Source: an uncultured beta proteobacterium
GTDB taxonomy: Bacteria > Pseudomonadota > Gammaproteobacteria > Burkholderiales > Rhodocyclaceae
DNA: 36,197 nucleotides
NCBI GenBank assembly: GCA_903848955.1
Contig: CAINHS010000076.1
Coordinates: 1-36,197 of the forward strand
Reading direction: 5' to 3'
This document shows, piece by piece, positions 5,590 to 20,796 of the stretch. A program made the translations under genes and the position numbers. The notes below the pieces were generated by a model, which did no database searches, was not told where the DNA came from, and was given only the letters and a program-made list of their open reading frames with translations. Within the stretch, counting starts at the first letter, position 1, and each line of letters starts with the position of its first letter.

Positions 5590-5601
5590 GTCCGATTGGA
5601 C
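5590..5601 (-). promoter_or_regulatory. GTCC-N4-GGAC inverted repeat upstream of the amidohydrolase
   Basis: Reads AGTCCAATCGGACGTT on the minus strand, 70 bp before the amidohydrolase start and touching the npdG stop codon. The core is a perfect GTCC-N4-GGAC. Its right flank (GTT) matches the other copies less well than the tonB or receptor sites do. It is the weakest of the six candidates by context. Confidence 0.35.
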
Positions 5602-6278
5602 TATTCCAGTCCGGTGACGCGTATTCCCGCCTGGGTGCTGTACTGCTTGTTGATGAAAATCAGCACCGAGGTCAGCGCCTCGACGGCGGCGGCATTGGCT
5701 ATGCTGCCGGCATGGATACCGCGCATGCCCGCCGCCTCGACCAGCTTGACCACTTCGCCGCGCGCTTCCTTGCTGTCGCCGCAGACCAGCACGTCGCAAT
5801 CGAGGCCGCGACCTTCCTGCAAATGATGGGCGGCGACGTTCTGGAACGCCGACACCACCCTGACGTCCTCTCCCAGCAGCGACTGGGCGATCTGCCCGGC
5901 GGAACCCTGCGGCGGCAGTTGCACGCGCGCCACCCTGGGCGGCACCAGCGGCACCGTGACATCGATCAGGATCTTGCCCTTGAGAGCCTCGCGAACCGCT
6001 TCCAGGGTGCTGCTCTGGTGGCTGAAAGGCACCGTCAGGGCGACGATGTCGGCGGCCTGCGCGGCGGCGAGGTTCTCCATCGCCTGCACGTTCAGGCTGG
6101 AGACGCCGCGCTCGGCCATCACCCGGCGCAGGTCGGCGAGCGCCGTCTCCGCCTTGTCCTGGGTACGCGAGCCGATGATGACCTGATAGCCGGCCGCCGC
6201 CCAGCGTCGCGCCAGACCGGTACCGAGGTCGCCCGTGCCGCCGAGGATGGCGAGAACCGGAAGTTGAGTGGTAGTCAT
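5601..6278 (-). CDS. npdG: F420:NADP oxidoreductase (NpdG/Fno family)
   Basis: A 225-residue Rossmann protein of the NADPH-dependent F420 reductase family, which transfers hydride between NADP(H) and coenzyme F420. The N-terminal LAILGGTGDLGTGLARRWAA followed by VIIGSR is the family's NADP site (Ser-Arg reading the 2'-phosphate). LTVPFSHQSSTLE, LIDVTVPLVPP and VSAFQNVAAHHL follow in the expected order. The ATG at 6278 gives the normal family length; open frame upstream of it overlaps the enoyl-CoA hydratase gene. It is 4 bp after that hydratase, firmly inside the catabolic operon rather than with the cof genes 9 kb away. This suggests F420 reduction or reoxidation is tied to the pathway itself. 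Confidence 0.88.
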   Translation of the reverse strand: MTTTQLPVLAILGGTGDLGTGLARRWAAAGYQVIIGSRTQDKAETALADLRRVMAERGVSSLNVQAMENLAAAQAADIVALTVPFSHQSSTLEAVREALKGKILIDVTVPLVPPRVARVQLPPQGSAGQIAQSLLGEDVRVVSAFQNVAAHHLQEGRGLDCDVLVCGDSKEARGEVVKLVEAAGMRGIHAGSIANAAAVEALTSVLIFINKQYSTQAGIRVTGLE

Positions 6279-6282
6279 GGGT

Positions 6283-7062
6283 TCAGCGTCCCTTGTAGTT
6301 GGGCTTGCGTTTCTCGGCGAAGGCGCGCGGGCCTTCCCTGGCATCTTCCGACGCAAAGACGCGCGCGCCGATGGCTTTTTCGAGCACGAAATTGGGCTCG
6401 TTGTTGAGCGCCCGGACGGCGATCTCCTTGGCCGTGCGCACCGCCAGCGGGCCGTTCTCGCAGATCTTCTCGGCCCAGGCCATGGCTTCCTCAAGCAGTT
6501 TGTCGGCCGGCACGATCTTGTTGATCAGGCCGACCTGGTAGGCGCGCGTCGCATCGATCGGCTTGCCGGTGAGCAGCATTTCCATCGCCACCGCCCAGGG
6601 AATCTGCTGCGGCAGGCGGATATGCGAGCCGCCCACCGGGATCACGCCCCAACGCACCTCGGCCAGGCCGAAGCTGGCGTTCTCGGAGGCGATGCGGATG
6701 TCGGTGCCCTGCAGGAACTCCATGCCGCCGGCGATGCACAGGCCGTTGACGGCGGCGATGATGGGCTTGTAGATGGTGTAGAAGGGGCGCTTGACCGGAT
6801 CCTCGTAGCCCATCGAATCACCGGAATTGATCGCCGGCAGGGCGTCCTTCATATCCATGCCGGTGCAGAAGGCGCGCTCGCCGGTACCGGTGAACACGGC
6901 CACCCAGAGGTCCGGGTCCTGGTTGAAATCCTCGAAGGCGGCATCCATGCCGACCAGCATTTCGCGCGTGAAGGCGTTCAGGGCCTGCGGCCGGTTGATG
7001 GTCATCACGGCGATGCGGCCGCGCTTCTCGTACTTGAAAGTTTCGGGCAGGTTCAATGCCAT
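6283..7062 (-). CDS. Enoyl-CoA hydratase/isomerase (crotonase)
   Basis: A 259-residue crotonase, expected to add water to 2-enoyl-CoA or to shift double bonds. Both acidic positions of classical hydratases appear to be kept: Glu in IAGGMEF (oxyanion region, near residue 115) and Glu in FGLAEVRWGVIP. The substrate-loop segment ERAFCTGMDMKD is present. GAGGAA lies upstream of the ATG at 7062. The gene lies 33 bp after the DUF35 gene and 4 bp before npdG. Which of the two crotonases in the operon does the ordinary hydration step cannot be said for certain, but the two-Glu pattern makes this one the better candidate. Confidence 0.88.
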   Translation of the reverse strand: MALNLPETFKYEKRGRIAVMTINRPQALNAFTREMLVGMDAAFEDFNQDPDLWVAVFTGTGERAFCTGMDMKDALPAINSGDSMGYEDPVKRPFYTIYKPIIAAVNGLCIAGGMEFLQGTDIRIASENASFGLAEVRWGVIPVGGSHIRLPQQIPWAVAMEMLLTGKPIDATRAYQVGLINKIVPADKLLEEAMAWAEKICENGPLAVRTAKEIAVRALNNEPNFVLEKAIGARVFASEDAREGPRAFAEKRKPNYKGR

Positions 7063-7095
7063 CGGGTATTCCTCGTTCTGTAAAAAGTTGGCGCT

Positions 7096-7515
7096 TCAGG
7101 TGCGGCGAAAACAAGGCAGGCTGATGTCCTCGCTGACCGCTTCGAATTCCACCCGCACCGGCATGCCGATGCGCAAGTCCTCGGGGGGGCAGTCGATGAT
7201 GCGCGAAACCAGGCGCACGCCCTCTGCCATCTCCACCACCACCGGCGCATAAGGCACGGCCTGGAGAAAGGCCGGATGCAGCGCCCGCTCCACTACCGTC
7301 CAGGTGTAGACCGTGCCCGCGCCGCTGGAGCGCACCCACTCCCAGTCGAAGGAGGAGCAGTCAGCGCAGATCTCGCGCGGCACATGGCGGAAGCTGCCGC
7401 ACTGCTTGCAGCGCTGGAAGCGCAACTCGCCCTGCCGGCACCAGTCGTAGAACTCCTTGGCGAGGCCTTTCATTAGCGGCAGCGGCCGCTTGCATCCGAT
7501 AAAAGGATCTTTCAT
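7096..7515 (-). CDS. DUF35 zinc-ribbon/OB-fold acyl-CoA-binding partner protein
   Basis: A 139-residue protein of the DUF35 (rubredoxin-like zinc ribbon plus OB fold) family. The ribbon reads CKQCGSFRHVPREICADC (C-x2-C, then C-x2-C, residues about 36-53), and the OB part follows with GTVYTWTVV and APVVVEMAEG. DUF35 proteins act as partners of thiolase-fold enzymes; in actinobacterial steroid degradation a DUF35 domain is needed by the aldolase Ltp2. The thiolase-fold gene immediately upstream is the natural partner. The ATG at 7515 has no visible Shine-Dalgarno, and a repeat element sits just upstream, so the original translation signals may have been disturbed. An alternative ATG 14 codons in has none either. 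Confidence 0.85.
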   Translation of the reverse strand: MKDPFIGCKRPLPLMKGLAKEFYDWCRQGELRFQRCKQCGSFRHVPREICADCSSFDWEWVRSSGAGTVYTWTVVERALHPAFLQAVPYAPVVVEMAEGVRLVSRIIDCPPEDLRIGMPVRVEFEAVSEDISLPCFRRT

Positions 7516-7533
7516 TTCAAAAAACCCGGTTGA

Positions 7534-7658
7534 ACCACAGAGGCACAGAGGAAAAGCAAGTGCTGACCGTAGCGAAGGCGCTCACCTCCCGGGTGCTCGC
7601 CACCGGATTGACAAGCGTCTGATTCCAAGCCTTCTCTGTGCCCCTGTGTCTCTGTGGT
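7534..7658. repeat. Imperfect inverted-repeat element between thiolase-fold and DUF35 genes
   Basis: The left arm ACCACAGAGGCACAGAGG (7534-7551) pairs imperfectly with the right arm at 7630-7658, whose reverse complement begins ACCACAGAGACACAGGGG. The left arm lacks about eight bases present in the right one. About 80 bp of non-coding sequence separates the arms. From memory, the CACAGAGACACAGAG type string recurs between genes in many environmental genomes; no search was possible here. Confidence 0.6.
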
Positions 7659-7676
7659 GAAGAATTTCGGTTCATA

Positions 7677-8843
7677 TCATCGTCCGAGTATGGCGATGCT
7701 GCCATCGCCGAAATCGCCCCAGCCGGTGACTACGCCGATCTCTGCGTCCTTCACCTGGCGGGCGCCGGCTACGCCGCGCAACTGGCGCACGGCTTCGACC
7801 ACATGACCCAGCCCCAGGCTGTGGGCGTGCGACAGCAGGCCGCCGTGGGTATTCACCGGCAAGCGTCCGCCGAGACTGATGCCGCCGTTCTCGACAAAGG
7901 CGCCGCCTTCGCCGCGAGCGCAAAATCCCGCTTCCTCGATCTGCTGGATGACCTCGAAGGTGAAGCAGTCATAGATTTCGGCGAAGTCGGCGTCGCCGGG
8001 CGTGACGCCGGCCTGGCGAAAGGCCTCCGCTGCGGCACTGGTGAGGCCGATGCGATGAAACTCGCGGCGGTTGGTGATCTCGTCGGCCGGATAGGGCTGG
8101 CCGGCAGCGGCACCCAGCACCTTGACGGGGCGCTGCGCCAGGTCGCGGGCACGCTCGGCGCTGGTGACGACGAAGGCCGCGGCACCGTCGGTCTCCAGGC
8201 AGCAATCGAGCAGGCGATAGGGATCCGAGATCATCGGCGACGCCAGGTAGTCGGCCATGGTCATCGGCTTGCCGCACATCATCGCCGCCGGATTCAACTG
8301 CGCATGCCCGCGCATGGCCAGGGCCACGGCGCCGAGCTGCTCGGCCGTGGTGCCGAATTCGTGCATGTGGCGGCGCGCCATCAGCGCGTACCACTGCGGC
8401 GGCGCGGTGTAGCCGTAGGGCATGTAGTAGTCGCGGGCGATCTGTGCCCCGGGTATGGAATCGTCATCGCCCGCCGAGGTCTCGCGCACGCGCTCGCCGG
8501 AGTAGCCGTTCCAGCCGCCGGGCACCAGCACGTAGTCGGCGGCACCGCTCGTGACCGCCATGGCCGCCATGCGCAGCGAGGCCACCGGCGCCGCACCGCC
8601 CATGTTGATGGTCGCGGCGAAGCGCAGGTCGGCGCAACCCAGATTGGCGGCCAGCGCCTCGGCCTTGCCGAGATTGGGGAAGGGCATGATGCCGTCGATC
8701 TGCGAAGCCTTGAGGCCGGCATCGGCGATCGCCGCCAGCGCCGCCTTCAGTTGCAGGGCCATCTGGCTGAGACCGGAGCCCGGCTTGCGGCAATAGGCCG
8801 TCTCGCCGATGCCGACGATGCAGGCTTGCCCGGTTGCTGTCAT
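7677..8843 (-). CDS. Thiolase-fold protein lacking the catalytic Cys; possible Ltp2-type aldolase
   Basis: A 388-residue protein with the thiolase fold of the SCP-x/lipid-transfer group. Where thiolases carry the nucleophilic Cys (N-x-C-S/A-S/T-G), this protein reads ATINMGGAAPVAS (residues 77-89), with no Cys. The later segments EIYDCFTFEV (Tyr at 291) and NTHGGLLSHAHSLGLGHVVEAV are kept. Ltp2, a steroid side-chain retro-aldolase working with a DUF35 protein, uses a Tyr in a comparable YD-x-FT segment. Together with the DUF35 gene next door this suggests C-C bond cleavage by an aldol route rather than thiolysis. The ATG overlaps the crotonase stop (ATGA). An inactive scaffold or a non-aldolase role cannot be excluded. 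Confidence 0.82.
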   Translation of the reverse strand: MTATGQACIVGIGETAYCRKPGSGLSQMALQLKAALAAIADAGLKASQIDGIMPFPNLGKAEALAANLGCADLRFAATINMGGAAPVASLRMAAMAVTSGAADYVLVPGGWNGYSGERVRETSAGDDDSIPGAQIARDYYMPYGYTAPPQWYALMARRHMHEFGTTAEQLGAVALAMRGHAQLNPAAMMCGKPMTMADYLASPMISDPYRLLDCCLETDGAAAFVVTSAERARDLAQRPVKVLGAAAGQPYPADEITNRREFHRIGLTSAAAEAFRQAGVTPGDADFAEIYDCFTFEVIQQIEEAGFCARGEGGAFVENGGISLGGRLPVNTHGGLLSHAHSLGLGHVVEAVRQLRGVAGARQVKDAEIGVVTGWGDFGDGSIAILGR

Positions 8844-9739
8844 TTGGTCTTTTTCTCCGCCTGTGCTGCCTGATATTCGTCGAGCAACTGCCGGCGCATT
8901 TCCGCCTCGCGCTTGCGGAGGGCCCAGAATTCCGGCTTGCGCTTTTCCAGGAAAGCGGGACCGCCCTCCTTGCCCTCGGGCATGTCGAACCAGTCCGGGT
9001 ACATCGCCGCCGAGGTGACGCAGGATTCCTTGTAGCCGTCCATCTCCTGATCGAAGCTGGCCTTCAGCACTTCCAGGCAGCCGGGACTCAGGGCCAGCAT
9101 TTCCTCGCACCACTTGTCCACTTCGGCCTCGAGTTGATCGAGCGGCACGACGGTGTTGATGAGGCCCATCGCCAGCGCTTCCGGAGCCTTGTACTTGCGG
9201 CACAGCATCCACATTTCGCGCGCCTTCTTGGCGCCGACCACCTTGGTCAGGTAGGGCACGAAGAAGCCGTCGGCGGGCGACGAAACGCGCGGCCCGGCCT
9301 GACCGAAGATGGCGTTGTCGGCGGCGATGGTGAAGTCGCAGCAGTAGGCCATGTGGTTGTGGCCGGCGATGCAATAACCCTGTACCTGGGCGATGATGGG
9401 CTTGCGCGAAATGCGCATCAGGCGGTTGTGCGGGTAGCGGTTGTAGAAGGCTTCGCGCAAACCCCAGCGCTCCCATTCGACATCGCCGCCGGCACCGAAG
9501 TGCTTGCCGCGCGCGGCGACGATGATGACGCCGATGGCCGGATCATGATTGGCGTCGTAGAAAGCCCGGAACATCTCGTCGACCGTGACCAGGGTCAGCG
9601 CGTTCATCTTCTCCGGCTTGTTGAGCGAAACGCGGGCGACGGCGCCCCCGGTTTCCTGATGTTGCTTCTTCTCGTAAATGATTTCATTGAAGTCATCCAG
9701 ACCTTCGCCCTTGACGACGCTCCACTCGCTCCAGCTCAT
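8840..9739 (-). CDS. Crotonase, MenB/BadI-like (possible ring-opening hydrolase)
   Basis: A 299-residue crotonase, longer than usual. It has the C-terminal pattern of the naphthoyl-CoA synthase (MenB) and 2-ketocyclohexanecarboxyl-CoA hydrolase (BadI) group: FGQAGPRVSSPADGFFVPYL, KKAREMWMLCRKYKAPEALAMGLINTVVP and WCEEMLALSPGCLEVLK. Members form or break a carbon-carbon bond beside a CoA thioester, and BadI and EchA20 open rings. The start at 9739 was chosen because GGGAGG lies about eight bases upstream; an ATG at 9772 would overlap the previous gene. The C-terminal 30 residues are charged and probably helical. The context fits opening of a beta-keto-acyl-CoA ring, but MenB-like condensation is chemically related and cannot be ruled out by sequence. 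Confidence 0.85.
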   Translation of the reverse strand: MSWSEWSVVKGEGLDDFNEIIYEKKQHQETGGAVARVSLNKPEKMNALTLVTVDEMFRAFYDANHDPAIGVIIVAARGKHFGAGGDVEWERWGLREAFYNRYPHNRLMRISRKPIIAQVQGYCIAGHNHMAYCCDFTIAADNAIFGQAGPRVSSPADGFFVPYLTKVVGAKKAREMWMLCRKYKAPEALAMGLINTVVPLDQLEAEVDKWCEEMLALSPGCLEVLKASFDQEMDGYKESCVTSAAMYPDWFDMPEGKEGGPAFLEKRKPEFWALRKREAEMRRQLLDEYQAAQAEKKTK

Positions 9740-9758
9740 GCCCGCTTCCTCCCGTTCG

Positions 9759-10967
9759 TCATGGTATGGCACCCTTGGCCTTGAGTTCCTCGATGGCCTC
9801 CCACTCGTAGCCGAGCAACTCCATCATCAACACCTCGGTGTCCTGTCCCAGTTCGGGTCCCAGGCAGCGCAATTCACCCGGCGTCCTGGACAGCGTCACC
9901 GGCATGCCGCGCACCTCGACTTCGCGATTCACTTCCTCGGAGTAGGCCTTCAGAAAATAACCGTTCTGCCAGGCCTGCTCGTCCTTGATCACGTCGGCCA
10001 GGTTATTCACCGGACTGGCGACGAGTCCCGCGGCCTTGAAGGCCGCCATCAGTTCTGCGTGGCCGCGCTGCAGGGTCAGCGCCTCGATGGCCGCGATCAG
10101 GGCCGCATTGTGTGTCGTGCGCCCGGCCGCGTCGGCGAAGCGGGGATCATTGCCCAGGGCATCCGCCGCCAGCGCCCGGCACAGGGCGGCAAAGCGTCCG
10201 TCCGCGTTCTGTTCGCAGAGGTAGACCCACTTGCCCTGCGTCGGGTAGAGGTTCCACAGCGGGTTCGCCGCCTGCTTGCGCGAGTGCTGCAACGCGCTGC
10301 CCTGGTGGCCGGCCAGATAGGATTGCAGGTAGGGTGCCGCCAGGTACAACTGCGCGCCGTAGAGCGAGGCATCGAGATACTGCCCCTTGCCGGTACGGCG
10401 CCGCTGATAGAGTGCGAGCATGATGCCGAGCGCCGACATGATGCCGCCGAAGGCATCGCCGGAGCCCATGCCCATGTAAATCGGCGGCTGCCCGGGTTCG
10501 CCCAGCCGGGCCATGGCGCCGGTCAGGGCCTGCACGGTCATGTCGAACGACGGCTTGGAAACGCCGCCGAAGCGCCCGTAGCCGGTATTGGTGGCATAGA
10601 CCAGGCGCGGGTTGATGGCGACGAGCTTCTCATAGGAGAGATTCCATCCGGCGAGCATTTCCGGCGCCAGATTGGACAGGAATACATCGGACTTCTCTAT
10701 CAGGCGATGGAGAATCTCCTGGCCCTCCGGCTTCTTCAGGTCGATGGCCATGCTCTTCTTGTTGCGATTGATGACCATGAAATACTGGTTCCAGTCGCCG
10801 ACTTCCAGCGACTTGATGCTGCGCACGCCGCGTCCCTGGTCGCCGCCCTGGGGACGCTCCACCTTGACCACGTCGGCGCCGAAGTCGGCCAGATACTGCG
10901 CCGCCACCGGCCCCTGAAACCAGACCGTAAGATCGACGACGCGGATGCCTTCGAGTGCCTTGCCCAT
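9759..10967 (-). CDS. Family III CoA-transferase, downstream member of tandem pair
   Basis: A 402-residue CaiB/BaiF-family CoA-transferase. The N-terminal GIRVVDLTVWFQGPVAAQYLADFGADVVKVE and the INRNKKSMAIDLKK segment are typical. The catalytic Asp is present in GKGQYLDASLYGAQ near residue 195. It lies 12 bp downstream of a second, more distant CoA-transferase of nearly equal length, an arrangement seen in two-subunit enzymes such as the BbsE/BbsF benzylsuccinate CoA-transferase. As one of the first two genes of the left operon it may activate the incoming acid. Whether the pair is a heteromer or two separate enzymes is not decided by sequence. Confidence 0.9.
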   Translation of the reverse strand: MGKALEGIRVVDLTVWFQGPVAAQYLADFGADVVKVERPQGGDQGRGVRSIKSLEVGDWNQYFMVINRNKKSMAIDLKKPEGQEILHRLIEKSDVFLSNLAPEMLAGWNLSYEKLVAINPRLVYATNTGYGRFGGVSKPSFDMTVQALTGAMARLGEPGQPPIYMGMGSGDAFGGIMSALGIMLALYQRRRTGKGQYLDASLYGAQLYLAAPYLQSYLAGHQGSALQHSRKQAANPLWNLYPTQGKWVYLCEQNADGRFAALCRALAADALGNDPRFADAAGRTTHNAALIAAIEALTLQRGHAELMAAFKAAGLVASPVNNLADVIKDEQAWQNGYFLKAYSEEVNREVEVRGMPVTLSRTPGELRCLGPELGQDTEVLMMELLGYEWEAIEELKAKGAIP

Positions 10968-10979
10968 GCTTACCCCCGT

Positions 10980-12164
10980 CTATGCGACCACGCCTGCGGC
11001 GGTCAGTTGCTGGATGGCCTCGACCGGATAATCGAGCAGTTCGTGCAGCACCTGGCCGGTATGCTGCCCGGTGCAGGGCGCCAGGCGGTCGAGACGCGCC
11101 ATGCTGTCGCTCATGAAGATGGGGAAACCCAGGCTCTTCAGCTTGCCGAAGCTGGGATGATCCAGCTCGATGATATAGCGGTTGGCAGACACTTGCGGAT
11201 CAGTGGCCGGATAGTCGAACTGCTCGATGATGTCGGCCGACATCTGCTTCTCCATGAACTCCTTGCGCCAGTGGGCTCCCGGCTGCTTCTGAAAAGCCTG
11301 CTCAAGTTCCTGGATCAGGGCCAGCCGGTTGACCTCGGTGCGCTTGTCGTGGCTGTCGAAGCGCGGGTCGTCGGTGGCGATGCCGACCATCTTCGAGAAC
11401 ACCGGCCACCAGCGGTCGGTGTCCGGCATGGTGAGCGTAACCCAACGGCCATCGGCACTGGGATACAGCGAACCGGACATGGGATTGGAGACATCCAGCC
11501 GCGAGATCGGGTTGAGCAGGCGGTCACCTTTGCCGATGGCGAGGAAGGCCTGCAGGTCGAGGGCGGCGCCGTACATGTTGGCGCCGAACAGGGAGACATC
11601 CACCTCCTGCCCCTCGCCGGAGCCGAGCCGATGAAACAGGGCCATGACCACGCCGAAGGCCAGCATCACCGATGCATGCATGGCGCCGGCGCCGGTGTAC
11701 ACCGGCGGCTGGCCCGGCTGCGGCAGTATCGGCATCATCCCGGTGCGCGCCGCCGCCAGTTCGTCTATCGCCGGCAGTTCGCTGTCCGGCCCCAGCGGAC
11801 CGAAACCGGACAAGCGGCCGAAAACGATATCGGGGCGGAGCTTCGATGCCGCGGCGAAGTCGATGCCGATGGCCGCCAGTTCGTCGCGCGTCATGTCGGT
11901 GACGATGGCATCGGCCCGGGCCACGAGTTCGTGCAGCAACTGCCGGCCGCGCTCGACATGCAAGTCCACGGCCAGGCTTTCCTTGTTGCGGTGGATCAGA
12001 TCGGCTTCGTGGTTCCATTGGCCGTTGGCAGTCTTCGCCGCCACGGGCAGGCCTTCGAGCCGGATCACCCGTGCGCCGAAATCACCGAGGAAGGCGGCCG
12101 ACAGTGACGAGCAGAACTGCCGCGTCAGGTCGAGTACGACCAGGCCATCAAGCGCGCGACTCAT
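10980..12164 (-). CDS. Family III CoA-transferase, first gene of left operon
   Basis: A 394-residue CaiB/BaiF-family CoA-transferase. Typical segments are LDGLVVLDLTRQFCSSLSAA at the N-terminus and IHRNKESLAVDLHVERG near residue 57. The catalytic Asp sits in GEGQEVDVSLFGA near residue 190. The N-terminal third is less canonical: the glycine-rich G-P-x-A segment is replaced by FCSSLSAAFLGDFGARVI, and the donor-CoA loop is shortened. The ATG at 12164 is preceded by GTGAGGAGA. It is the first gene after the divergent intergenic region, so its promoter probably lies within 12165-12548. The substrate acid is unknown. Confidence 0.88.
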   Translation of the reverse strand: MSRALDGLVVLDLTRQFCSSLSAAFLGDFGARVIRLEGLPVAAKTANGQWNHEADLIHRNKESLAVDLHVERGRQLLHELVARADAIVTDMTRDELAAIGIDFAAASKLRPDIVFGRLSGFGPLGPDSELPAIDELAAARTGMMPILPQPGQPPVYTGAGAMHASVMLAFGVVMALFHRLGSGEGQEVDVSLFGANMYGAALDLQAFLAIGKGDRLLNPISRLDVSNPMSGSLYPSADGRWVTLTMPDTDRWWPVFSKMVGIATDDPRFDSHDKRTEVNRLALIQELEQAFQKQPGAHWRKEFMEKQMSADIIEQFDYPATDPQVSANRYIIELDHPSFGKLKSLGFPIFMSDSMARLDRLAPCTGQHTGQVLHELLDYPVEAIQQLTAAGVVA

Positions 12165-12548: not shown

Positions 12549-13061
12549 ATGTCAAATCGTGAAAACATGCAAAAACCCGACTTCATGACCGAAGACGAAT
12601 GGGCCTGGATAAAGGACAGGACGTCATCGGTGGCGAAGATAACCGAGGATGCCCACGCCGATGTCGAGCGTTACCTGGCCAACCCGGACGGCTGGTCAAC
12701 CGGAACCGGGAGCCCGTCCGGCTTGCCGACGCTGTTGCTGACCACCATCGGCCGCAAATCGGGCGAGAAGCGCACCACGCCGCTGGTCTTTCTGCAGGAC
12801 GGTGAAAACATGGTAGTGGTCGGCTCGCTCGCCGGATACGACCGGCATCCGGCCTGGTACATGAACATCCAGGCCAATCCGCAAGCGTGGGTGCAACTCG
12901 ACCGCCGCAAGCTTACCGTCTCCTACCGCGACGTTACCGATGCCGAGCGCACAGCCTTGTGGCCCAGGCTCGACAAGGTATTCCCGGCCTGGGGCTATTT
13001 CCAGAAACAGACCGACCGCCCCTTCCCGATCGTCATCCTGACGCCGACCGGCGCGGCCTGA
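12549..13061 (+). CDS. Ddn-type deazaflavin (F420)-dependent reductase
   Basis: A 170-residue protein of the deazaflavin-dependent nitroreductase (Ddn) family, split-barrel enzymes that use F420H2 to reduce quinones or activated double bonds. The family signature LLTTIGRKSGEKRTTPLVFLQDG is at about residues 60-82. VVVGSLAGYDRHPAWYMNIQANP follows and ends in the usual VQLDRRKLTVSYRDVT. It is the first gene of the plus-strand operon and lies 76 bp before the flavoprotein gene. A F420H2-dependent reductase beside cof genes supports F420-linked reduction of a pathway intermediate. Quinone protection, a known role in mycobacteria, is the alternative. Confidence 0.88.
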   Translation: MSNRENMQKPDFMTEDEWAWIKDRTSSVAKITEDAHADVERYLANPDGWSTGTGSPSGLPTLLLTTIGRKSGEKRTTPLVFLQDGENMVVVGSLAGYDRHPAWYMNIQANPQAWVQLDRRKLTVSYRDVTDAERTALWPRLDKVFPAWGYFQKQTDRPFPIVILTPTGAA

Positions 13062-13137
13062 GCCCCTGCCGGCTCCGGACGCCTGACCAAACCGTCGCCG
13101 GCGATGCGACGCGAATAACAAAGAGGACAAAACAGCC

Positions 13138-15135
13138 ATGAGCAATGTGAAATTCGATCACCTTTTCGCACCCTTGCAGGTGGGACCGATGCGGGTGCCG
13201 AACCGCGTCTGCGAAACCACCAATACCATCAACTCGTCGATGAGCCAGGGCATGATCGACGAGTTCTTCATTGCTCACCATATCGCCAAGGCCAAGGGCG
13301 GCACGGGCTGGATCGGCAGCGAAACCTGGCTGCTCAACATGCCCTTCCCGCCCGAGACACCGGACGAGATCGGCCTCTCGATCGGTTGTGCCGCTCACGA
13401 AGCCCTCTACATGTACCCGGCCTTCGCCGAAGGCATGAAGAAGTTCGTCGACGAAGTGCACAAGGAAGGTTCAGTGGCGGTGGTGCAACTGACCCAGCTC
13501 AATTCCGTCTGGGCGCCTTCGCCGGTACCGGTGGTCGGGGCGCAAAGCTACACGCCGCACGTGATGGGCGAAGCAGAGATCGAGTTTTGCTTCAACGTAT
13601 ACGCCGAGGCAGCAAAAGTTGCCATGGCTACCGGTGCCGACGGCATCGAAATCCACTGCGCCCACGAGACCGTGGGTTACAGCTTCCTCTCGCCCGTCAC
13701 CAATCGCCGCAGCGACCGCTGGGGCGGTGGTCCGCAAGAGCGCGTGCTGTTCGTCGTCGAGGCGCTGAAGCGGGTCAAGGGAGTGATCGGCGACAAGCTG
13801 GCTCTGGGCATACGCATCAACGGCGAAGAGTTCCGTGCCGGCGGCTACGACAACATGCAGATGCGCGAGATGCTCTATGCCATCGCCGAAACCGGCCTGC
13901 TCGACTTCGTCGACATCGACACCGGACATTGCTGGGGGGCCGCGTCTTACGTACCGTCGTCCTACCATCCGCACGCCGAGTTCCGCGAGATCGGCAAGGC
14001 CGCCAAGGCCGACCTGGCAGAGATGCCCAAACCGCCCGCCGTGCTGTTCACCGGCCGCATCAACGATCCGGTGCTGGCCGAGGAGTTGCTGCGCGAAGGT
14101 TATTGCGACCTGGTGGGCATGGTGCGTGCCGGCATCGCCGATCCCGATTTCGCCAACAAGGCCAAGGAAGGCCGCCTCGGCGAGATACGCCGCTGCATCG
14201 CCTGCACGCGCTGCATCGACGAGGCATCGGAGTCCCTGTATATCCCCTACACGCCGATGTGTTCGATCAACCCGATCGTCGGCAACGAACTGCGCTGGCA
14301 ACAGCAGTACAAGCCGGCGGAGAAGGCCAAGCGCGTCGTCGTCGTCGGCGGCGGTCTGGCCGGCTGCGAAGCGGCGCGCATCGCCACCATGCGCGGCCAC
14401 AAGGTGACCTTGATCGAGCAGGGCAAGCGCCTCGGCGGCCAGTTGCTGCTGTCGTCCAAGGCTCCCGGCCGCGACTCCTTCGAGGATCAGATCTATTTCG
14501 AGGAAAACGAGATGGCGCGCCTCGGCGTCGACGTGCGGCTCGAGACCGCTGCCGATGTCGCCGCGATCAAGGCCTTGTCGCCTGACGCGGTGGTCATCGC
14601 CACGGGCGCCGCGCCACGCGTGCCCCACGATGTCAGCGGCCTCGAACTGCCGCATGTGGTGCAGGGTTGGGAGGTCATGAAAGGCAAGGTGCAGACCGGC
14701 CAGCGCGTCGCGGTCGTTTCACAGGAAGACTATTTCGAAACGCCCTGTATCGCCGAGTACCTGGCAAGCAAGGGCAAGCAGGTCACGATCTTCCACAAGA
14801 ACGTGCACCTCGGCTGGGAAATCGCCCGCTACTCGATCGCCATGATGCTGGCACGCATGGAGCAGTGCGGGATTGATGTTCATCCCAACCTGGTGCTGAC
14901 GAAGATCGAAGCCAAGGCTCTGGAATTCGTCTCGGCGCTGGGCAAGCAGACCTACCGCAAGGAGGGCTTCGACAGCGTGGTGCTCGTGTATGGAGCGGTG
15001 GCGCAACCCGCCCTGTACGACCAGCTCAAGGCCGACGGCAGCATCGCCCAACTCTACCTGGCCGGCTCCGCATGGCTGCCGCGCCGCATGGCAGAGGCAA
15101 CACGGCATGGCGCCAACATCGGTCTGGTGATCTGA
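13138..15135 (+). CDS. Old Yellow Enzyme-type NADH:flavin oxidoreductase (2,4-dienoyl-CoA reductase/BaiCD-like)
   Basis: A 665-residue three-part flavoenzyme: an FMN TIM barrel (residues 1-340), an Fe-S cluster segment, and an FAD/NAD(P) domain starting with VVVVGGGLAGCEAARIATMRG near 400. Relatives reduce enone or dienoyl-CoA double bonds: FadH, and BaiCD/BaiH in bile-acid dehydroxylation. IHCAHETVGYSFLSPVTNRRSDRWGG (about 174-199) is the barrel signature. The cluster cysteines are C353, C356, C359 and C375, so the spacing is C-x2-C-x2-C-x15-C; FadH-type enzymes as I recall them have C-x2-C-x3-C-x11-C. The ATG has AAAGAGGAC upstream. The operon position between a Ddn-type reductase and cofE is notable. 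The substrate is unknown; an unsaturated CoA ester is likely. Confidence 0.88.
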   Translation: MSNVKFDHLFAPLQVGPMRVPNRVCETTNTINSSMSQGMIDEFFIAHHIAKAKGGTGWIGSETWLLNMPFPPETPDEIGLSIGCAAHEALYMYPAFAEGMKKFVDEVHKEGSVAVVQLTQLNSVWAPSPVPVVGAQSYTPHVMGEAEIEFCFNVYAEAAKVAMATGADGIEIHCAHETVGYSFLSPVTNRRSDRWGGGPQERVLFVVEALKRVKGVIGDKLALGIRINGEEFRAGGYDNMQMREMLYAIAETGLLDFVDIDTGHCWGAASYVPSSYHPHAEFREIGKAAKADLAEMPKPPAVLFTGRINDPVLAEELLREGYCDLVGMVRAGIADPDFANKAKEGRLGEIRRCIACTRCIDEASESLYIPYTPMCSINPIVGNELRWQQQYKPAEKAKRVVVVGGGLAGCEAARIATMRGHKVTLIEQGKRLGGQLLLSSKAPGRDSFEDQIYFEENEMARLGVDVRLETAADVAAIKALSPDAVVIATGAAPRVPHDVSGLELPHVVQGWEVMKGKVQTGQRVAVVSQEDYFETPCIAEYLASKGKQVTIFHKNVHLGWEIARYSIAMMLARMEQCGIDVHPNLVLTKIEAKALEFVSALGKQTYRKEGFDSVVLVYGAVAQPALYDQLKADGSIAQLYLAGSAWLPRRMAEATRHGANIGLVI

Positions 15136-15147: not shown

Positions 15148-15216
15148 GATGAGGCACGCACCCGGTGACGGCAATTCCGGTCACTCCTGCAACAAGCTCT
15201 GTGAGGCTGACAGTTG

Positions 15217-15972
15217 ATGGGCACAAGCATCAGCTTCAACGCCCTGCAGGGCTTGGCGGAGGTCGGCGCCGGAGACGATCTGGCGGGGCTGCTGGCGGCC
15301 GCCATGCCGCCCGTGGCGACCAATGACATCCTCGTCGTCGCGCAGAAGATCGTTTCCAAGGCCGAAGCTCGCAGCGTTGACCTGAACACCGTATCGCCCT
15401 CGCCGCGGGCGCAGGAACTGGCGACGATCACCGGCAAGGATCCGCGCCTGGTGGAACTGATACTGGCCGAATCCTCTGACGTGTTGCGCGCCCTGCCCAA
15501 CATCCTCATCGTCCGCCACCGCCTCGGCTACGTCATGGCCAACGCCGGCATAGACCGCTCCAACGTACCCAGCGCGACCGGCGAAGAGCGCGTGCTGCTG
15601 CTGCCGGTTGATGCCGACGCCTCGGCCGCAGCGCTGCGCAAGGCCTTGCGCAGCCGCCTCGGCGTCGACCTCGGCATCATCATCAGCGACAGCTTCGGCC
15701 GCCCCTGGCGCAACGGCGTGGTCAATGTCGCGCTCGGCGCCGCCGGACTGCCGTCGCTGGTCGACCGCCGCGGCGAACCCGACCGCTGCGGCCGCGGCAT
15801 GGAAGTCACGCAAGTCGCGCTGGCCGATGCCCTGGCCGCCGCCGCCGGCCTGGTCATGGGTGAAGGCGCCGAAGGCGTGCCGGCAGTACTCGTCAAAGGA
15901 TTTGACTGGAGTGCGCCGGAGTGCGCGGCGAGCGCGCTGATCCGGCCGCTGGCCGAAGACCTGTTCCGATGA
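15217..15972 (+). CDS. cofE: Coenzyme F420-0:L-glutamate ligase
   Basis: A 251-residue CofE, which adds glutamates to F420-0 with GTP to make F420-1 and longer tails. NDILVVAQKIVSKAEARSV near residue 45, LGIIISDSFGRPWRNGVVNVALGAAGL near 155 and CGRGMEVTQVALADALAAAA near 190 are family hallmarks. The protein stops at the end of the CofE domain and lacks the C-terminal nitroreductase-like domain that actinobacterial FbiB uses to reduce dehydro-F420-0. I chose the ATG at 15217 (a TTG precedes it); its ribosome site is weak. Its TGA overlaps the cofD ATG (ATGA), so the two are translationally coupled. Confidence 0.94.
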   Translation: MGTSISFNALQGLAEVGAGDDLAGLLAAAMPPVATNDILVVAQKIVSKAEARSVDLNTVSPSPRAQELATITGKDPRLVELILAESSDVLRALPNILIVRHRLGYVMANAGIDRSNVPSATGEERVLLLPVDADASAAALRKALRSRLGVDLGIIISDSFGRPWRNGVVNVALGAAGLPSLVDRRGEPDRCGRGMEVTQVALADALAAAAGLVMGEGAEGVPAVLVKGFDWSAPECAASALIRPLAEDLFR

Positions 15973-16928
15973 GCAACGGCACCGTGGTGGCCCTCTCCGG
16001 CGGCATCGGCGGCGCCAAGCTGTCGCTCGGCCTGCTCGGCATCCTGCCGCCCGACAGCCTGTCCGTCGTCGTCAATACCGGTGACGATTTCGAACACCTG
16101 GGACTGCGCATCTCTCCCGACATCGATACCACGCTGTACACCCTGTCCGACCGGGTCAATCCCGAGACCGGCTGGGGGCAACGCGATGAAACCTGGCGCT
16201 TCATGGAACAGCAGGCACAGCAGGGCGGCGAGACCTGGTTCAGGCTCGGCGACCGCGACCTCGAGATTCACAGGGAACGCAGCCGGCGCCTGCGCGACGG
16301 CGAAACCCTGTCCGCCATCACCGCCGATTTCACGCGACGCTTCGGCATCGCCGCCGCCATCCTGCCGATGAGCGACGAAACGGTCAGCACCAGCGTCGCG
16401 ACCGACCAGGGCGAACTCGGCTTTCAGGACTATTTCGTGCGCCGCCAGTGCCAGCCATCGGTCAAGGGGCTGCGCTTCGCCGGCGCTGCCGCGGCACGGC
16501 CCGGCCCCGGCGTGGTGGCGGCCTTGAGTGCAAAGGACCTCATCGCCATCATCATCTGTCCCTCCAATCCCTGGCTCAGCATAGACCCGCTGCGCGCCGT
16601 GCCCGGCATGCGCCAACTGCTGCGCGGCAGCGGGGTGCCGGTGGTTGCGGTATCGCCGCTGGTCGGCGGCACGGCGGTGAAGGGACCGACGGCCAAGATC
16701 ATGACCGAACTCGGTCTGCCGGTGACGCCCGCAGCCGTCGCCCGGCACTATGCCGGATGGATTGACGGATTCGTCCTCGACAGCCGCGACCGCCAATACG
16801 CCGATGAAATTCAAGTGCCGGTGCTGGTCTGCGACACCCTGATGCAGACCCTCGCCGACCGCCGGCGACTGGCCGGCGCAACACTGGAGTTTGCCGCGAC
16901 ACTGGCACCATCGCGGGCTGCGGCATGA
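15969..16928 (+). CDS. cofD: 2-phospho-L-lactate (or related) transferase, F420-0 biosynthesis
   Basis: A 319-residue CofD/FbiA, which moves a phospholactyl-type group from its GDP-activated form onto the deazaflavin Fo. VVALSGGIGGAKLSLGLLG at the N-terminus, VVNTGDDFEHLGLRISPDIDTTLYTLS near residue 35, CPSNPWLSIDPLRAVPGMR near 200 and VSPLVGGTAVKGPTAKIM near 235 are diagnostic. The start at 15969 gives the family N-terminus and the four-base overlap with cofE; a longer in-frame extension would read into cofE. Its stop also overlaps the next start (ATGA at 16925-16928). Whether the donor carries lactate, pyruvate (from PEP) or glycerate (3-PG) cannot be read from CofD alone. Confidence 0.94.
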   Translation: MSNGTVVALSGGIGGAKLSLGLLGILPPDSLSVVVNTGDDFEHLGLRISPDIDTTLYTLSDRVNPETGWGQRDETWRFMEQQAQQGGETWFRLGDRDLEIHRERSRRLRDGETLSAITADFTRRFGIAAAILPMSDETVSTSVATDQGELGFQDYFVRRQCQPSVKGLRFAGAAAARPGPGVVAALSAKDLIAIIICPSNPWLSIDPLRAVPGMRQLLRGSGVPVVAVSPLVGGTAVKGPTAKIMTELGLPVTPAAVARHYAGWIDGFVLDSRDRQYADEIQVPVLVCDTLMQTLADRRRLAGATLEFAATLAPSRAAA

Positions 16929-19900
16929 GCTGCTGGGCCGTCATCACCGTCAAGACACTCAGCCAGTGCAAGCAGCGGCTGGCGGCGACGCTGTCGCCCG
17001 CCGCACGACAAACCCTGGTGCGGCACATGCTGCGCGATGTCATCGCCGCGCTGCGCGATGCCGGCAGCATCGCCCGCATCGCCGTGATCAGTGCCGAAGA
17101 CCTGCAACTGGATGGCGACATCACCTGGCTGCACGATGCCGGCGGCGGCCTCAATTCCGCCGCGGCGCAGGCCGCAGACTGGCTGCGGGCGCGCGGTGCG
17201 GCGGAAATGCTGCTGCTGCATGCCGACCTGCCCCTGCTCGGCGCGCACGAGATTGAAGCCCTGATCGCTGCCGGTCGCAGCCAGGGACTCGCCCTCGCCG
17301 GCGACCGTCGCGGCGAAGGCACCAACGCCATATACCTGACCCTGCCCGGCAGCTACGACTTCAGCTTCGGCCCGCTGAGCCTGCAGAAGCACTCGGCGCA
17401 GGCGCGCTTGCGCGGCCGCAGCGCGGCCCTGGTCGACCTGCCCGGCCTGTCCTTCGACATCGACACGGCGGCCGACCTTGACTTGCTGGCCGCCGTCCCG
17501 CGTTACCACTTCATCAAACAATATCTCAAGGAGAGCCGTATGCCCGATAAGGGATTGCGCCTGATCGCTGCGGCTCACGCCGGCGAACGACTGGGGCGCG
17601 AAGCCATCGAACTCGCCGCTTGCGAGGACATGGATGCGCTGCTCGCCGCTGCCGAAGCCATGACCATTGCCGGCCACGGCCGCAACGTCAGCTACTCGCG
17701 CAAGGTTTTCATTCCCCTGACCCGGCTCTGTCGCAACAACTGCGGCTATTGCACCTTCGCCGGGCAGCCGGACCCGGCGACAGCCTCCTACCTCAGCCCG
17801 GACGAGGTGCTGGCGATCGCCCGTGCCGGCGCCGCGGCGGGCTGCAAGGAAGCCCTGTTCACCCTCGGCGACAAACCCGAACTGCGTTACCCGGCGGCGC
17901 GCCAGGCACTGCAGGCACTCGGCTACGATTCGACCCTGGATTACGTCGCGGCGATGGCAAAGCGGGTGCATGAGGAAACCGGACTGCTGCCGCACCTCAA
18001 TCCCGGCGTCATGTCCTTGGAGGACATGCAGCGCCTGCGCCCCGTCGCCGCCTCCATGGGGCTGATGCTGGAGTCATCGGCGGCGCGACTGGGCAAGCGC
18101 GGCGGGCCGCACCATGCCTCGCCCGACAAGGTGCCCAAGGCCAGGCTGGCAATGCTGCACGATGCCGGCGTGCTGGCCATTCCGTTCACCAGCGGAATCC
18201 TGATCGGCATCGGCGAAACGCGGCGCGAACGCATCGAGTCGCTGCTGGCCTTGCGCGAGCTGCATGACAAATACGGCCACCTGCAGGAAATCATCATCCA
18301 GAATTTCCGCGCCAAGGCCGACACCGGCATGGCCGCTGCGGCGGAACCCGACTTGCGCGAACATCTATGGACCATCGCCGTGGCGCGCCTGATCTTCGGC
18401 CCTGCCATGACCCTGCAGGCACCGCCCAATCTGCGCAGCGGCGAACTCGGCGACTTGCTGCGCGCCGGCATCAACGACTGGGGCGGCGTCTCGCCGCTGA
18501 CACCGGACCATGTCAATCCGGAAGCGCCCTGGCCGCAAATCGAGGCGTTGGCCGCTGAAACGGCGGCTCACGGCCGCCACCTGGTGGAACGTCTGGCCAT
18601 CGCTCCGGCATTTGCCCGCAAGCCGCAGCCCTGGGTCGATGCCGCCATGCTGACGCCGGTGCTGCATGCCAGCGACGCCCTCGGTCTGGCGCGCGCCGAT
18701 GCCTGGCACCCCGGCTCCGGACTGGCGCCGTCGGGCAAGGCCAGCGACTGGCTGCAGTCGCCGCGACGCGGCATCAGCCCGGACCTGAACCGCCTGCTGC
18801 AACGCGCCAGCGGCGGCGAGCGGCTGGCGGAGCCGGAAATCGTCAAGCTGTTCAGCGCCCGCGGCACGGACCTGCACGCCCTGCTGCGCTGTGCCGACGA
18901 ACTGCGCGCCGACAGCGTCGGCGCCGCCGTCTCCTACGTCGTCAATTGCAACATCAACTACACCAACATCTGCGTGCACAAGTGCGGCTTCTGCGCCTTC
19001 GCCAAGGGCCGCAGCACCGAGGACGTGCGCGGTCCGGCCTACCAGATGCAGCCGGAGGACGTCGCCGCGCGCGCCGTCGAAGCCTGGCAGCGCGGCGCCC
19101 GCGAGGTCTGCCTGCAGGGCGGCATCCACCCCCATTACACCGGGCAGACCTATATCGACATCGTCACCGCGGTCAAGGCGGCAGTGCCCGACATGCATGT
19201 GCATGCCTTCTCGCCGCTGGAGGTATGGACCGGCGCCCGGACCCTGGGCCTGCCGCTCGCCGACTTCCTCGCCGAGTTGCGCGACGCCGGGCTCGGCACC
19301 CTGCCCGGCACCGCGGCGGAAATCCTCGACGACGAAGTGCGCGGCATCATCTGCGCCGACAAGCTGTCCACCCGGCAGTGGCTGGAAGTGATGACCACGG
19401 CCCACTCGCTCGGCATCAAGAGCACCGCCACCATCATGTTCGGCCACATCGAGCACCCGGGTCACTGGGCCCGCCATCTGCTGCGCGTACGCGACCTGCA
19501 GGAGGAAAGCGGCGGCTTCACCGAATTCGTCCCCCTGCCCTTCGTGCATATGGAATCTCCGCTCTGGCGCAAGGGTCTGGCGCGCTCCGGCCCGACCCTG
19601 AACGAAGTGCTGGCAATGCACGCCGTGGCGCGCCTGGTGCTGCATCCGCTGATACGCAACATTCAGGCCTCGTGGCCCAAACTCAGTCCCGCCGGCGCGC
19701 TGCTCTGCCTGCAGGCCGGCGCCAACGATATCGGCGGCACGCTGATGTACGAATCCATCTCGCGCGCCGCCGGCGCCGTCAGCGGCCAGGAACTGACCGC
19801 AGAGCATTTCAAGGAACTGGCGGCCAGCATCGGCCGGCCCGTCCGGCAACGCACCACGCTATACCAACGCGTCGTCTCGCGGCGCGCCATCGACAACCAT

Positions 19901-19939
19901 CAATCCATACAGGGAGGACTTTCATGCGCTTCACTTTGA
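16925..19939 (+). CDS. cofC-fbiC: CofC-CofG-CofH fusion: guanylyltransferase plus Fo synthase
   Basis: A single open frame of 1004 residues. Residues 1-205 are a CofC-type guanylyltransferase (WAVITVKTLSQCKQRLAATLS, HADLPLL, GEGTNAIYLTLPGSYDFSFG) that would activate the phosphorylated C3 acid. Residues 206-1004 match FbiC, the fused Fo synthase. Its CofG half has radical-SAM cysteines C269, C273 and C276 (CRNNCGYC); its CofH half has C683, C687 and C690 (CVHKCGFC). CofG and CofH together build Fo from tyrosine and a ribityl-diaminouracil. No stop separates CofC from FbiC, but an in-frame ATG at 17540 with AAGGAG before it could also start FbiC alone. The last 16 bases overlap the next gene. 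Confidence 0.93.
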   Translation: MSCWAVITVKTLSQCKQRLAATLSPAARQTLVRHMLRDVIAALRDAGSIARIAVISAEDLQLDGDITWLHDAGGGLNSAAAQAADWLRARGAAEMLLLHADLPLLGAHEIEALIAAGRSQGLALAGDRRGEGTNAIYLTLPGSYDFSFGPLSLQKHSAQARLRGRSAALVDLPGLSFDIDTAADLDLLAAVPRYHFIKQYLKESRMPDKGLRLIAAAHAGERLGREAIELAACEDMDALLAAAEAMTIAGHGRNVSYSRKVFIPLTRLCRNNCGYCTFAGQPDPATASYLSPDEVLAIARAGAAAGCKEALFTLGDKPELRYPAARQALQALGYDSTLDYVAAMAKRVHEETGLLPHLNPGVMSLEDMQRLRPVAASMGLMLESSAARLGKRGGPHHASPDKVPKARLAMLHDAGVLAIPFTSGILIGIGETRRERIESLLALRELHDKYGHLQEIIIQNFRAKADTGMAAAAEPDLREHLWTIAVARLIFGPAMTLQAPPNLRSGELGDLLRAGINDWGGVSPLTPDHVNPEAPWPQIEALAAETAAHGRHLVERLAIAPAFARKPQPWVDAAMLTPVLHASDALGLARADAWHPGSGLAPSGKASDWLQSPRRGISPDLNRLLQRASGGERLAEPEIVKLFSARGTDLHALLRCADELRADSVGAAVSYVVNCNINYTNICVHKCGFCAFAKGRSTEDVRGPAYQMQPEDVAARAVEAWQRGAREVCLQGGIHPHYTGQTYIDIVTAVKAAVPDMHVHAFSPLEVWTGARTLGLPLADFLAELRDAGLGTLPGTAAEILDDEVRGIICADKLSTRQWLEVMTTAHSLGIKSTATIMFGHIEHPGHWARHLLRVRDLQEESGGFTEFVPLPFVHMESPLWRKGLARSGPTLNEVLAMHAVARLVLHPLIRNIQASWPKLSPAGALLCLQAGANDIGGTLMYESISRAAGAVSGQELTAEHFKELAASIGRPVRQRTTLYQRVVSRRAIDNHQSIQGGLSCASL
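17528..17542 (+). promoter_or_regulatory. Internal ribosome site and ATG at the CofC/FbiC junction
   Basis: AAGGAG at 17528-17533 lies six bases before an in-frame ATG at 17540-17542, exactly at the boundary between the CofC domain and the FbiC part (MPDKGLRL). The site has ideal spacing, so a separate Fo synthase of 799 residues could be made from the same message besides the fusion. Confidence 0.6.
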
Positions 19940-20796
19940 TGCTGGGACTGGGCGGCTATCAGGACTATCTCGCCGTCGCCAGGGCGGCCGAGGAATGCGG
20001 CTGGGACGGCATCTCGCTGCCCGACAGCATTTTCTTCCCGAAGATTTCGGAATCGGATTATCCCTACGCCGACACGGCCGCCGTCCGTCAATACCTCTCG
20101 GTGGCACCGGTGATCGAGCCATTCGTCGCCCTCTCCGCCATTGCCGCGGTGACCAGCAAACTGCGCCTGATACCCGGCGTGCTCAAGGTGCCGGTGCGCC
20201 AGCCGCTGATCCTGGCCAAGTCGGTCAATTCGCTGGCGGTGATCAGCAACAACCGCCTGGTGCTCGGCGCCGGCCTCAGCCCGTGGAAGGAAGACTTCAC
20301 CTACAACGGCGCCGACTATGACAAGCGCGGCAAGCTGTTCGACGAATGCATTGCCATCATCCGCGGCACCATGCGCGGCGAGTACTTCGAATACCACAGC
20401 GACAACTACGACTTCGGCCCGATGAAGATGTGCCCGGTGCCGTCGCAAGCGGTGCCCTTCATCATCGGCGGCCACGCCCGCCCCGCGCTGGCGCGGGCTG
20501 CGCGCATCGGCGACGGCTGGATGTCGGCCAACACCGACTTCGCCGACCTGAAGCGCATGATCGAGGAACTCAACACCCTGCGCACCGAATACGGCACGCA
20601 GAACCGCACCGATTTCCAGATCTTCGGCAACGACATGAAGGCGCGCACCGCCGACGACTACCGCCGCGTTGCCGATCTCGGCGTCACCGACATCTGCGCC
20701 ATGCCGTGGAATGTCTACGACGCCACGGACAATCTGCAGGTCAAGCTGGACGGCCTGCGCCGCTTCGCCGACACCGTGATCGCAAAACTGGCATGA
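19924..20796 (+). CDS. Luciferase-like (F420-type) oxidoreductase
   Basis: A 290-residue TIM-barrel protein of the luciferase-like monooxygenase superfamily, whose members use FMN or F420. MRFTLMLGLGGYQDYLAVARAAEECGWDGISLPDS, the VTSKLRLIPGVLKVPVRQPLILAKSVNSL block and RLVLGAGLSPWKEDF are standard. FIIGGHARPALARAARIGDGWM closes the cofactor site. It starts inside the end of the cofC-fbiC gene (16-bp overlap) with GGAGG upstream. Direct coupling to F420 biosynthesis makes F420 the likely cofactor, though sequence alone does not exclude FMN. It probably carries out a hydride transfer on a pathway intermediate; the substrate is not identifiable. Confidence 0.87.
   Translation: MRFTLMLGLGGYQDYLAVARAAEECGWDGISLPDSIFFPKISESDYPYADTAAVRQYLSVAPVIEPFVALSAIAAVTSKLRLIPGVLKVPVRQPLILAKSVNSLAVISNNRLVLGAGLSPWKEDFTYNGADYDKRGKLFDECIAIIRGTMRGEYFEYHSDNYDFGPMKMCPVPSQAVPFIIGGHARPALARAARIGDGWMSANTDFADLKRMIEELNTLRTEYGTQNRTDFQIFGNDMKARTADDYRRVADLGVTDICAMPWNVYDATDNLQVKLDGLRRFADTVIAKLA

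Follow-up and report, generated by a model that had tools for sequence, protein, structure and literature searches.

Genes for making, recharging and using cofactor F420 within a CoA-thioester catabolic island of an uncultured betaproteobacterium

We analyzed a 36,197-nucleotide stretch of DNA from an uncultured beta proteobacterium of the Rhodocyclaceae (assembly GCA_903848955.1), hereafter the window, which is the entire contig CAINHS010000076.1 (C76), and describe a catabolic island, probably for the degradation of a complex organic substrate, that contains a set of genes for the deazaflavin cofactor F420. Genes for making F420, for recharging it (NpdG) and for using it (Ddn-type and luciferase-like, LLM-class, enzymes) share operons with coenzyme A (CoA)-thioester catabolic genes, and the island spans at least positions 1-24357. 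Judged from gene content and distribution, the island was probably assembled horizontally together with its own cofactor supply, and its pathway probably makes dedicated use of reduced F420 (F420H2). F420 production by some Proteobacteria is already in print, according to the accessible sections of PMC8498797; what looks new is the catabolic embedding of a proteobacterial F420 set. By titles and the opening lines of abstracts, we recognized no report in the open-access literature of a catabolic island with F420 synthesis, recharging and use genes in Proteobacteria.

The biosynthetic genes lie on the plus strand and were assigned by NCBIfam scores against each model's cut-off, with Pfam used for domains. 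The F420-0:glutamate ligase gene cofE (15217..15972; TIGR01916, 267.6 against a cut-off of 180.65), with F420_ligase as its sole Pfam domain, is followed by the 2-phospho-L-lactate transferase gene cofD (15969..16928; TIGR01819, 293.6 against 257.45) and by a cofC-cofG-cofH triple fusion (16925..19939), a single uninterrupted open reading frame (ORF) of 1004 amino acids. The fusion passes the CofGH (1127.9 against 1018), CofG (502.6 against 213.35), CofH (549.2 against 374.1) and CofC (151.6 against 105) models, and both CX3CX2C motifs (residues 269 and 683) as well as the CofC motifs ADLP and DID are intact. Homologs of CofC, CofD, CofE, CofG and CofH are all present above their cut-offs. A preliminary description of this DNA had named these genes together with an F420:NADP oxidoreductase, a Ddn-type reductase and a luciferase-like oxidoreductase; the whole list holds at NCBIfam cut-offs, with the addition of an OYE-type flavoprotein (13138-15135) that it had not named.

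The CofC domain has its best PDB match in the 3-phosphoglycerate (3PG) enzyme 7p97 (59 bits), and the window shares betaproteobacterial F420 genes with the Mycetohabitans 3PG-F420 cluster in the accessible part of PMC8764529. In contrast to that system, our reading of the alignment places Gly (in FGPLS) at the diagnostic Ser162 position and Leu at Met91, with the residues taken from the same part of PMC8764529. We therefore rejected the 3PG-F420 type, and expect 2-phospho-L-lactate (2-PL) or phosphoenolpyruvate (PEP) as the predicted starter. Fusion of CofC to FbiC is a recurrent arrangement: among 80 F420 loci (L006-L085) the two are fused in 21 and separate in 51, with no CofC seen in the remaining eight, and in an FbiC tree 22 of the 77 labelled rows are fused, which needs at least eight gains or losses. 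CofG-CofH and CofE-NTR fusions appear in the accessible parts of PMC8498797 and PMC6450877, and tagged proteins alone in that of PMC8764529, with no CofC-FbiC fusion in any of the three.

The recharging gene, npdG, encodes an F420:NADP oxidoreductase (5601..6278, minus strand; TIGR01915, 201.9 against 149.8). Its start lies at about 6278, not at 6494 as first described, and 4 bp behind the crotonase gene of the opposite-strand catabolic operon. NpdG reduces F420 with NADPH, and Ddn and LLM enzymes pass the hydride of F420H2 to unsaturated or activated substrates. The Ddn-type deazaflavin (F420H2)-dependent reductase (12549..13061, plus strand; PF04075; TIGR00026, 105 against 46.35) aligns over 113 residues with PDB 3r5l (105 bits), which we take to be the Ddn of M. 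tuberculosis. The LLM-class oxidoreductase (19924..20796, plus strand) belongs to an F420-named subfamily (TIGR03619, 183.7 against 166.9); its corrected start is the ATG at 19924, which stands behind GGGAGGA and ahead of the cofCGH stop at 19939, so that the two genes overlap. Between the Ddn gene and cofE lies the OYE or 2,4-dienoyl-CoA-reductase-type flavoprotein assigned by Pfam (13138..15135, plus strand), which has a CxxCxxC...C motif at residue 353, as in [4Fe-4S] relatives. Its PDB ranking is led by NCR (6qkg; 224.8 bits over residues 136-663), presumably 2-naphthoyl-CoA reductase, followed by trimethylamine dehydrogenase and 2,4-dienoyl-CoA reductase; the NCR match is distant and lends no support to an aryl-CoA substrate. 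Identity as BaiCD or as a mycofactocin OYE is not supported at the equivalog cut-offs (BaiCD, 318 against 825; mycofact_OYE_2, 440.6 against 793.15).

The two strands are organized as follows. On the plus strand, ddn, oye, cofE, cofD and cofC-cofG-cofH are separated by 76, 78, -4 and -4 bases, and llm is followed, with gaps of 22, 28 and 31 bases, by genes for a SnoaL_4 protein (20819..21343; PF13577), an aldehyde dehydrogenase (21372..22817; Pfam) and a CoA-transferase III-like protein of 502 amino acids with two Pfam-matched stretches (22849..24357). On the minus strand, the order is two family III CoA-transferases (coaT4, 10980..12164; coaT3, 9759..10967), an Ltp2-like thiolase or lyase (7677..8840, start approximate), whose best PDB match is the lipid-transfer protein 6ok1 (266 bits), a DUF35/ChsH2-type OB-fold protein (7096..7515), which is likely the partner of the thiolase, and a crotonase or enoyl-CoA hydratase (ech, 6283..7062). 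Then follow npdG, an Amidohydro_2 amidohydrolase (4540..5520), a short-chain dehydrogenase (3774..4550), a further CoA-transferase (coaT2, 2513..3745), an acyl-CoA dehydrogenase with Acyl-CoA_dh domains (1302..2501, start about 2483) and a last CoA-transferase (coaT1, 126..1286; PF02515, 275.9 bits). Pfam bears out the CoA-transferase, acyl-CoA dehydrogenase and crotonase genes reported earlier and is also the basis for the amidohydrolase, short-chain dehydrogenase and DUF35 assignments, and we take the genes then called racemase-like as members of CoA-transferase family III. A scan for promoters and terminators was uninformative (one promoter found against 1.8 expected, four terminators against 9.4).

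The island seems to continue into a second contig of the same genome, C99, of 31,216 bp. The reverse complement of its first 322 bases matches window positions 1-322 at 317 of 322 positions. From this overlap at both contig ends we infer that the two contigs are neighbors, although the five mismatches would also permit a second copy that is nearly identical. C99 opens with a FAS1-type dehydratase gene whose start lies in the window, a short ORF with no Pfam match, an acyl-CoA dehydrogenase and a DUF2889 protein, followed by two CoA-transferases, an LLM protein and a crotonase, all of which would extend the minus-strand catabolic operon. After the crotonase, the other strand encodes EtfB and a nitronate-monooxygenase-type protein, and C99 also encodes an acyl-CoA ligase that scores above a long-chain-acyl-CoA-synthetase cut-off.

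This gene content suggests a pathway in which a substrate acid would be activated by the CoA-transferases, dehydrogenated, hydrated and then cleaved by an Ltp2/DUF35-type retro-aldol or thiolytic cut, with an aldehyde oxidized by the aldehyde dehydrogenase. NpdG would move a hydride from NADPH to F420, and the resulting F420H2 would serve the Ddn and LLM enzymes, which may act beside the OYE flavoprotein to reduce a CoA-thioester pathway intermediate with an unsaturated enone, dienoyl or ring structure. As to the substrate, the Ltp2-like thiolase and the EchA19-like crotonase lean toward bulky side-chain acids. Steroid degradation is where the nearest matches of these two proteins point, and it was set aside as no steroid model reached its cut-off; the side-chain models fell short for the lipid-transfer protein (PRK07855, 348.6 against 469) and for EchA19 (296.3 against 400), the best NCBIfam match of the crotonase. 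Bbs-type (benzylsuccinate) beta-oxidation, which the gene content also suggested, finds no support in its scores (BbsB, 109.3 against 750; BbsA, 26.2 against 250).

A partly matching island occurs in Aromatoleum anaerobium LuFRes1, a cultured strain, in which 14 proteins with 70-90% identity lie within about 67 kb. The catabolic proteins of the window are represented there by the amidohydrolase (78.5% identity), crotonase (73%), DUF35 protein (70%), thiolase (82%) and three CoA-transferases (77-82%; coaT2 82%, coaT3 77%, coaT4 81%), and the redox proteins by OYE (73%), Ddn (71%), LLM (59%), NpdG (56%), aldehyde dehydrogenase (53%) and the SnoaL protein (53%). The cof products are CofE (65%), CofD (66%), FbiC (64%) and a CofC encoded by a separate gene (52%). 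Genes of C99 also have counterparts (CoA-transferase 71%, LLM 71%, crotonase 72%, EtfB 75%, nitronate monooxygenase 90%), and several others on C99 have no match in this strain. Crotonase and amidohydrolase genes are adjacent in A. anaerobium and have npdG between them only in the window, and the arrangement therefore differs. The match with this strain is in this way partial, with some genes weaker, missing or differently arranged. A 2-oxopent-4-enoate-type lower pathway lies nearby in A. anaerobium, with a score below cut-off for the DmpE model (387.9 against 408.8). Two Steroidobacteraceae metagenome-assembled genomes (MAGs; 40 kb each) carry Ddn (61-66%), OYE (78%), a fused CofCGH (60-61%), SnoaL (52-55%) and LLM (54%) counterparts. 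A matching island was found in only a few other genomes.

A Ddn-OYE gene pair is conserved in some genomes. At E 1e-100, an OYE ortholog (73-78% identity) was found in four of 50 F420-positive genomes drawn from the 80 loci, namely A. anaerobium, the two Steroidobacteraceae MAGs and KLAP178. In each of the five genomes with the ortholog, our own included, the gene immediately upstream of OYE encodes Ddn, and all five hold FbiC. Homologous loci that lack cof genes were sought through the OYE ortholog, and this ortholog was present in none of 398 other genomes of the order (E 1e-200) and none of 368 other genomes of the class (E 1e-150), two slightly overlapping samples that were not chosen for F420 and in which at most three candidates per genome were scored; the other island genes were not searched in this way. 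Ddn is not confined to the pair, as the family occurs in 11 of 17 F420-positive genomes searched. On plasmids, OYE had no match at 1e-100 and Ddn had matches in 36 records, all below 60%. The link between the Ddn-OYE pair and F420 is suggestive. A more specific version is that a mobile beta- or gammaproteobacterial island brings F420 synthesis and recharging genes along, and that island-made F420H2 would drive a hard ring or enone reduction through the Ddn-OYE pair, possibly with F420H2 and Ddn feeding an NCR-like OYE as a low-potential donor; we offer this tentatively and regard it as doubtful. The broader proposal, a dedicated F420H2 step in this pathway, is likely, because the genes share an operon and the Ddn-OYE pair is conserved. 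The earlier suggestion of such a step is supported to that extent, as a predicted reaction.

Several observations weigh against a dedicated F420H2 step, and we considered them under two alternatives. The first is that synthesis stops at FO or at an immature deazaflavin, or that the reductases use flavins, so that no F420H2 step exists. CofE (about 252 amino acids) has no FbiB-type C-terminal dehydro-F420 reductase domain, a separate enzyme elsewhere not having been sought, and CofC is of the predicted 2-PL/PEP type and not of the 3PG type. Flavin users exist among LLM and Ddn-related families, and membership of an F420-named LLM subfamily is not proof of F420 use. This alternative has to contend with biosynthetic domains that all pass equivalog cut-offs with their motifs intact, and with the alignment of the window Ddn to the presumed M. 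tuberculosis enzyme; on these grounds we hold it to be distinctly improbable.

The second alternative is that the F420 genes form a general-purpose acquired cassette whose F420H2 is used cell-wide, in stress or detoxification, and not by this pathway. Ddn-family proteins and the OYE ortholog are both absent from the Sterolibacterium genome whose cof genes are closest to those of the window. The own genome encodes eight LLM proteins (one in the window, four on C99, two on C3 and one on C6), all eight above the cut-off of an NCBIfam subfamily named F420-dependent; that five of them are on the window or C99 counts for the dedicated step, and the location of the other three genes on C3 and C6 (L207, L208 and L212) for general use. 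In a census of 49 F420 loci of at least 20 kb, scored by similarity to the island proteins at E 1e-8 and given as raw counts without a background, LLM-like matches occurred in 38 and npdG in 30, and only seven loci combined at least two of the three catabolic types CoA-transferase III, acyl-CoA dehydrogenase and crotonase, which makes catabolic embedding a minority arrangement. F420 sets or FO synthase genes also occur on plasmids of other Proteobacteria. The conserved pair and the matching islands have their own weak points. The OYE ortholog is missing from 46 of the 50 F420-positive genomes and from 14 further genomes with FbiC in the class sample. Four of the five pair genomes were found by searching F420-positive genomes alone, which makes the exclusive occurrence with F420 partly a product of the design. 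No cofE or cofD match was found in the 40 kb examined of each Steroidobacteraceae MAG. In A. anaerobium, the acyl-CoA dehydrogenase, short-chain dehydrogenase and coaT1 of the window match at only 31-35%, and the cofD ORF (L152, 3497-4090) has 197 amino acids against about 320 in the window; its C-terminal part is missing through either a real loss or an assembly error. What speaks against a general cassette is the tight packing of the cof genes with Ddn, OYE, LLM and catabolic genes, the position of npdG inside the catabolic operon and the presence of the Ddn-OYE pair together with FbiC in five genomes. We therefore regard cell-wide use as unlikely and retain the dedicated F420H2 step as the preferred reading.

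The distribution of the F420 genes bears on how the island arose. In a CofE search of 61 genomes, 40 of them with a completeness of 90% or more and a contamination of 5% or less, the gene was found in our own genome and, outside it, in none of 30 genomes of the genus, none of six further ones of the family and three of 24 further ones of the order. A strong FbiC match was present in 15 of 369 genomes of the class, our own included, and the other 16 matches were weak (below 26 bits). Among the matches listed, window positions 1-19,000 had no DNA match over about 250 bases in the genus, and those for the region up to 24,000 were aldehyde dehydrogenase paralogs, reaching about 1 kb within the genus (64-70%), with another on own contig C3 (69%). 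Because CofE is rare in relatives, no long genus match is listed and npdG lies between crotonase and amidohydrolase genes that are adjacent in A. anaerobium, the idea that the F420 set was acquired and then integrated, already put forward for this DNA, is supported.

The source of the set appears to be mixed. In the FbiC tree (104 rows, quick method), the window joins a Sterolibacterium MAG locus (L006) with a support of 100, within a seven-row clade (support 98) whose other members are A. anaerobium, Pseudomonas linyingensis, a Pseudomonadota MAG and the two Steroidobacteraceae MAGs. The closest matches of cofE and cofD (76% and 79%) likewise come from this Sterolibacterium locus, of which the 23 kb examined yielded no npdG. 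The window npdG is nearest to loci of Spongiibacteraceae, HTCC2143 and Cellvibrionales, marine gammaproteobacteria (74-77%, against 56% for A. anaerobium), and in the npdG tree no supported branch holds the window. These affinities suggest that the F420 set may be a composite with at least two sources. The comparison with actinobacterial sequences, which had been proposed at the outset, left the window with the Sterolibacterium MAG; in an approximately unbiased (AU) test on a 28-row subset, a grouping of the window and L006 with three actinobacterial rows was not rejected (p 0.51). An actinobacterial source is thus not favored by identity, and the AU test would be compatible with such a grouping.

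The host genome (3.62 Mb in 151 contigs) has a completeness of 99.97% and an estimated contamination of 1.48%. Its RpoB shares 87% identity with its counterpart in the Sterolibacterium MAG behind L006 and 84% with the one in A. anaerobium; in the remaining 18 genomes with a match (24 searched) the main piece reached at most 74%, and one 149-residue fragment 81%. These identities would place the host as a betaproteobacterium near Rhodocyclales. A misbinned or chimeric contig, with an island from another organism, would fit the fragmented genome and the lack of a long genus match to the island among the matches listed. The low estimated contamination argues otherwise, as do two elements shared with the genus: an AAA_14/DUF4143 ATPase gene (24407-25540) with 76-82% DNA identity over about 1.2 kb in eight of 30 other genus members, and a dispersed intergenic repeat inside the catabolic operon (7521..7675, with 23-nt inverted arms), which recurs in other members of the genus and on contigs of the own genome, with an 84% match on C57. 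Since both occur in genus members, they support the binning; we judged bin contamination unlikely, and a foreign origin of the contig itself is highly improbable. The ATPase gene directly adjoins the right edge of the island. Beyond it, two intergenic tandem arrays (25718-25839 and 28806-28927), each with three units of 36-37 nt, are matched in other genus members.

Compared with known systems, the window combines familiar parts in a different setting. As far as the accessible sections of PMC8498797 go, proteobacterial F420 clusters share with the window FbiC (fused CofGH), and in Betaproteobacteria Fno/NpdG is the sole known F420-reducing enzyme; the window differs in having CofC fused to CofGH and in being set in a CoA-thioester catabolic island with Ddn, OYE and LLM. 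The same sections describe the use of F420H2 in picrate and dinitrophenol degradation by Rhodococcus, Nocardia and Nocardioides through an F420H2-dependent LLHT reductase (PMC8498797). The likeness lies in a catabolic F420H2 reduction by an LLM-class reductase, a role that is predicted for the window; those systems are actinobacterial, whereas in the window no nitroaromatic genes were recognized and the cofactor synthesis genes lie in the same operon. Section 23 of PMC8498797 adds that no F420H2-dependent reductase has been studied in bacteria outside Actinobacteria and that their role needs experimental work.

F420-related genes beside catabolic genes were also seen on plasmids. On a plasmid of Sphingobium sp. 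TomMM7A (L188, 19908-41695), an FO synthase gene is annotated beside echA20, CoA-transferase subunits, 2-nitropropane dioxygenase and hsaC; we take the hsaC-type neighbors to be steroid-ring genes. This locus is a second association of F420 with catabolism. F420 biosynthesis or FO synthase genes further occur beside catabolic or pyrroloquinoline quinone (PQQ) genes on plasmids typed as conjugative, namely Aromatoleum aromaticum EbN1 plasmid 2 (L186), Novosphingobium pSA2 (L187), L201 and L203.

In summary, the island offers a testable role for F420 in Proteobacteria, with synthesis, recharging and use tied to one catabolic locus. With the CofC-FbiC fusion, it also holds a compact F420-making enzyme. 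Part of the island has its match in a named strain, A. anaerobium LuFRes1, with the short cofD ORF there as a reservation. Should our reading hold, catabolic islands can be vehicles for the spread of entire cofactor systems.

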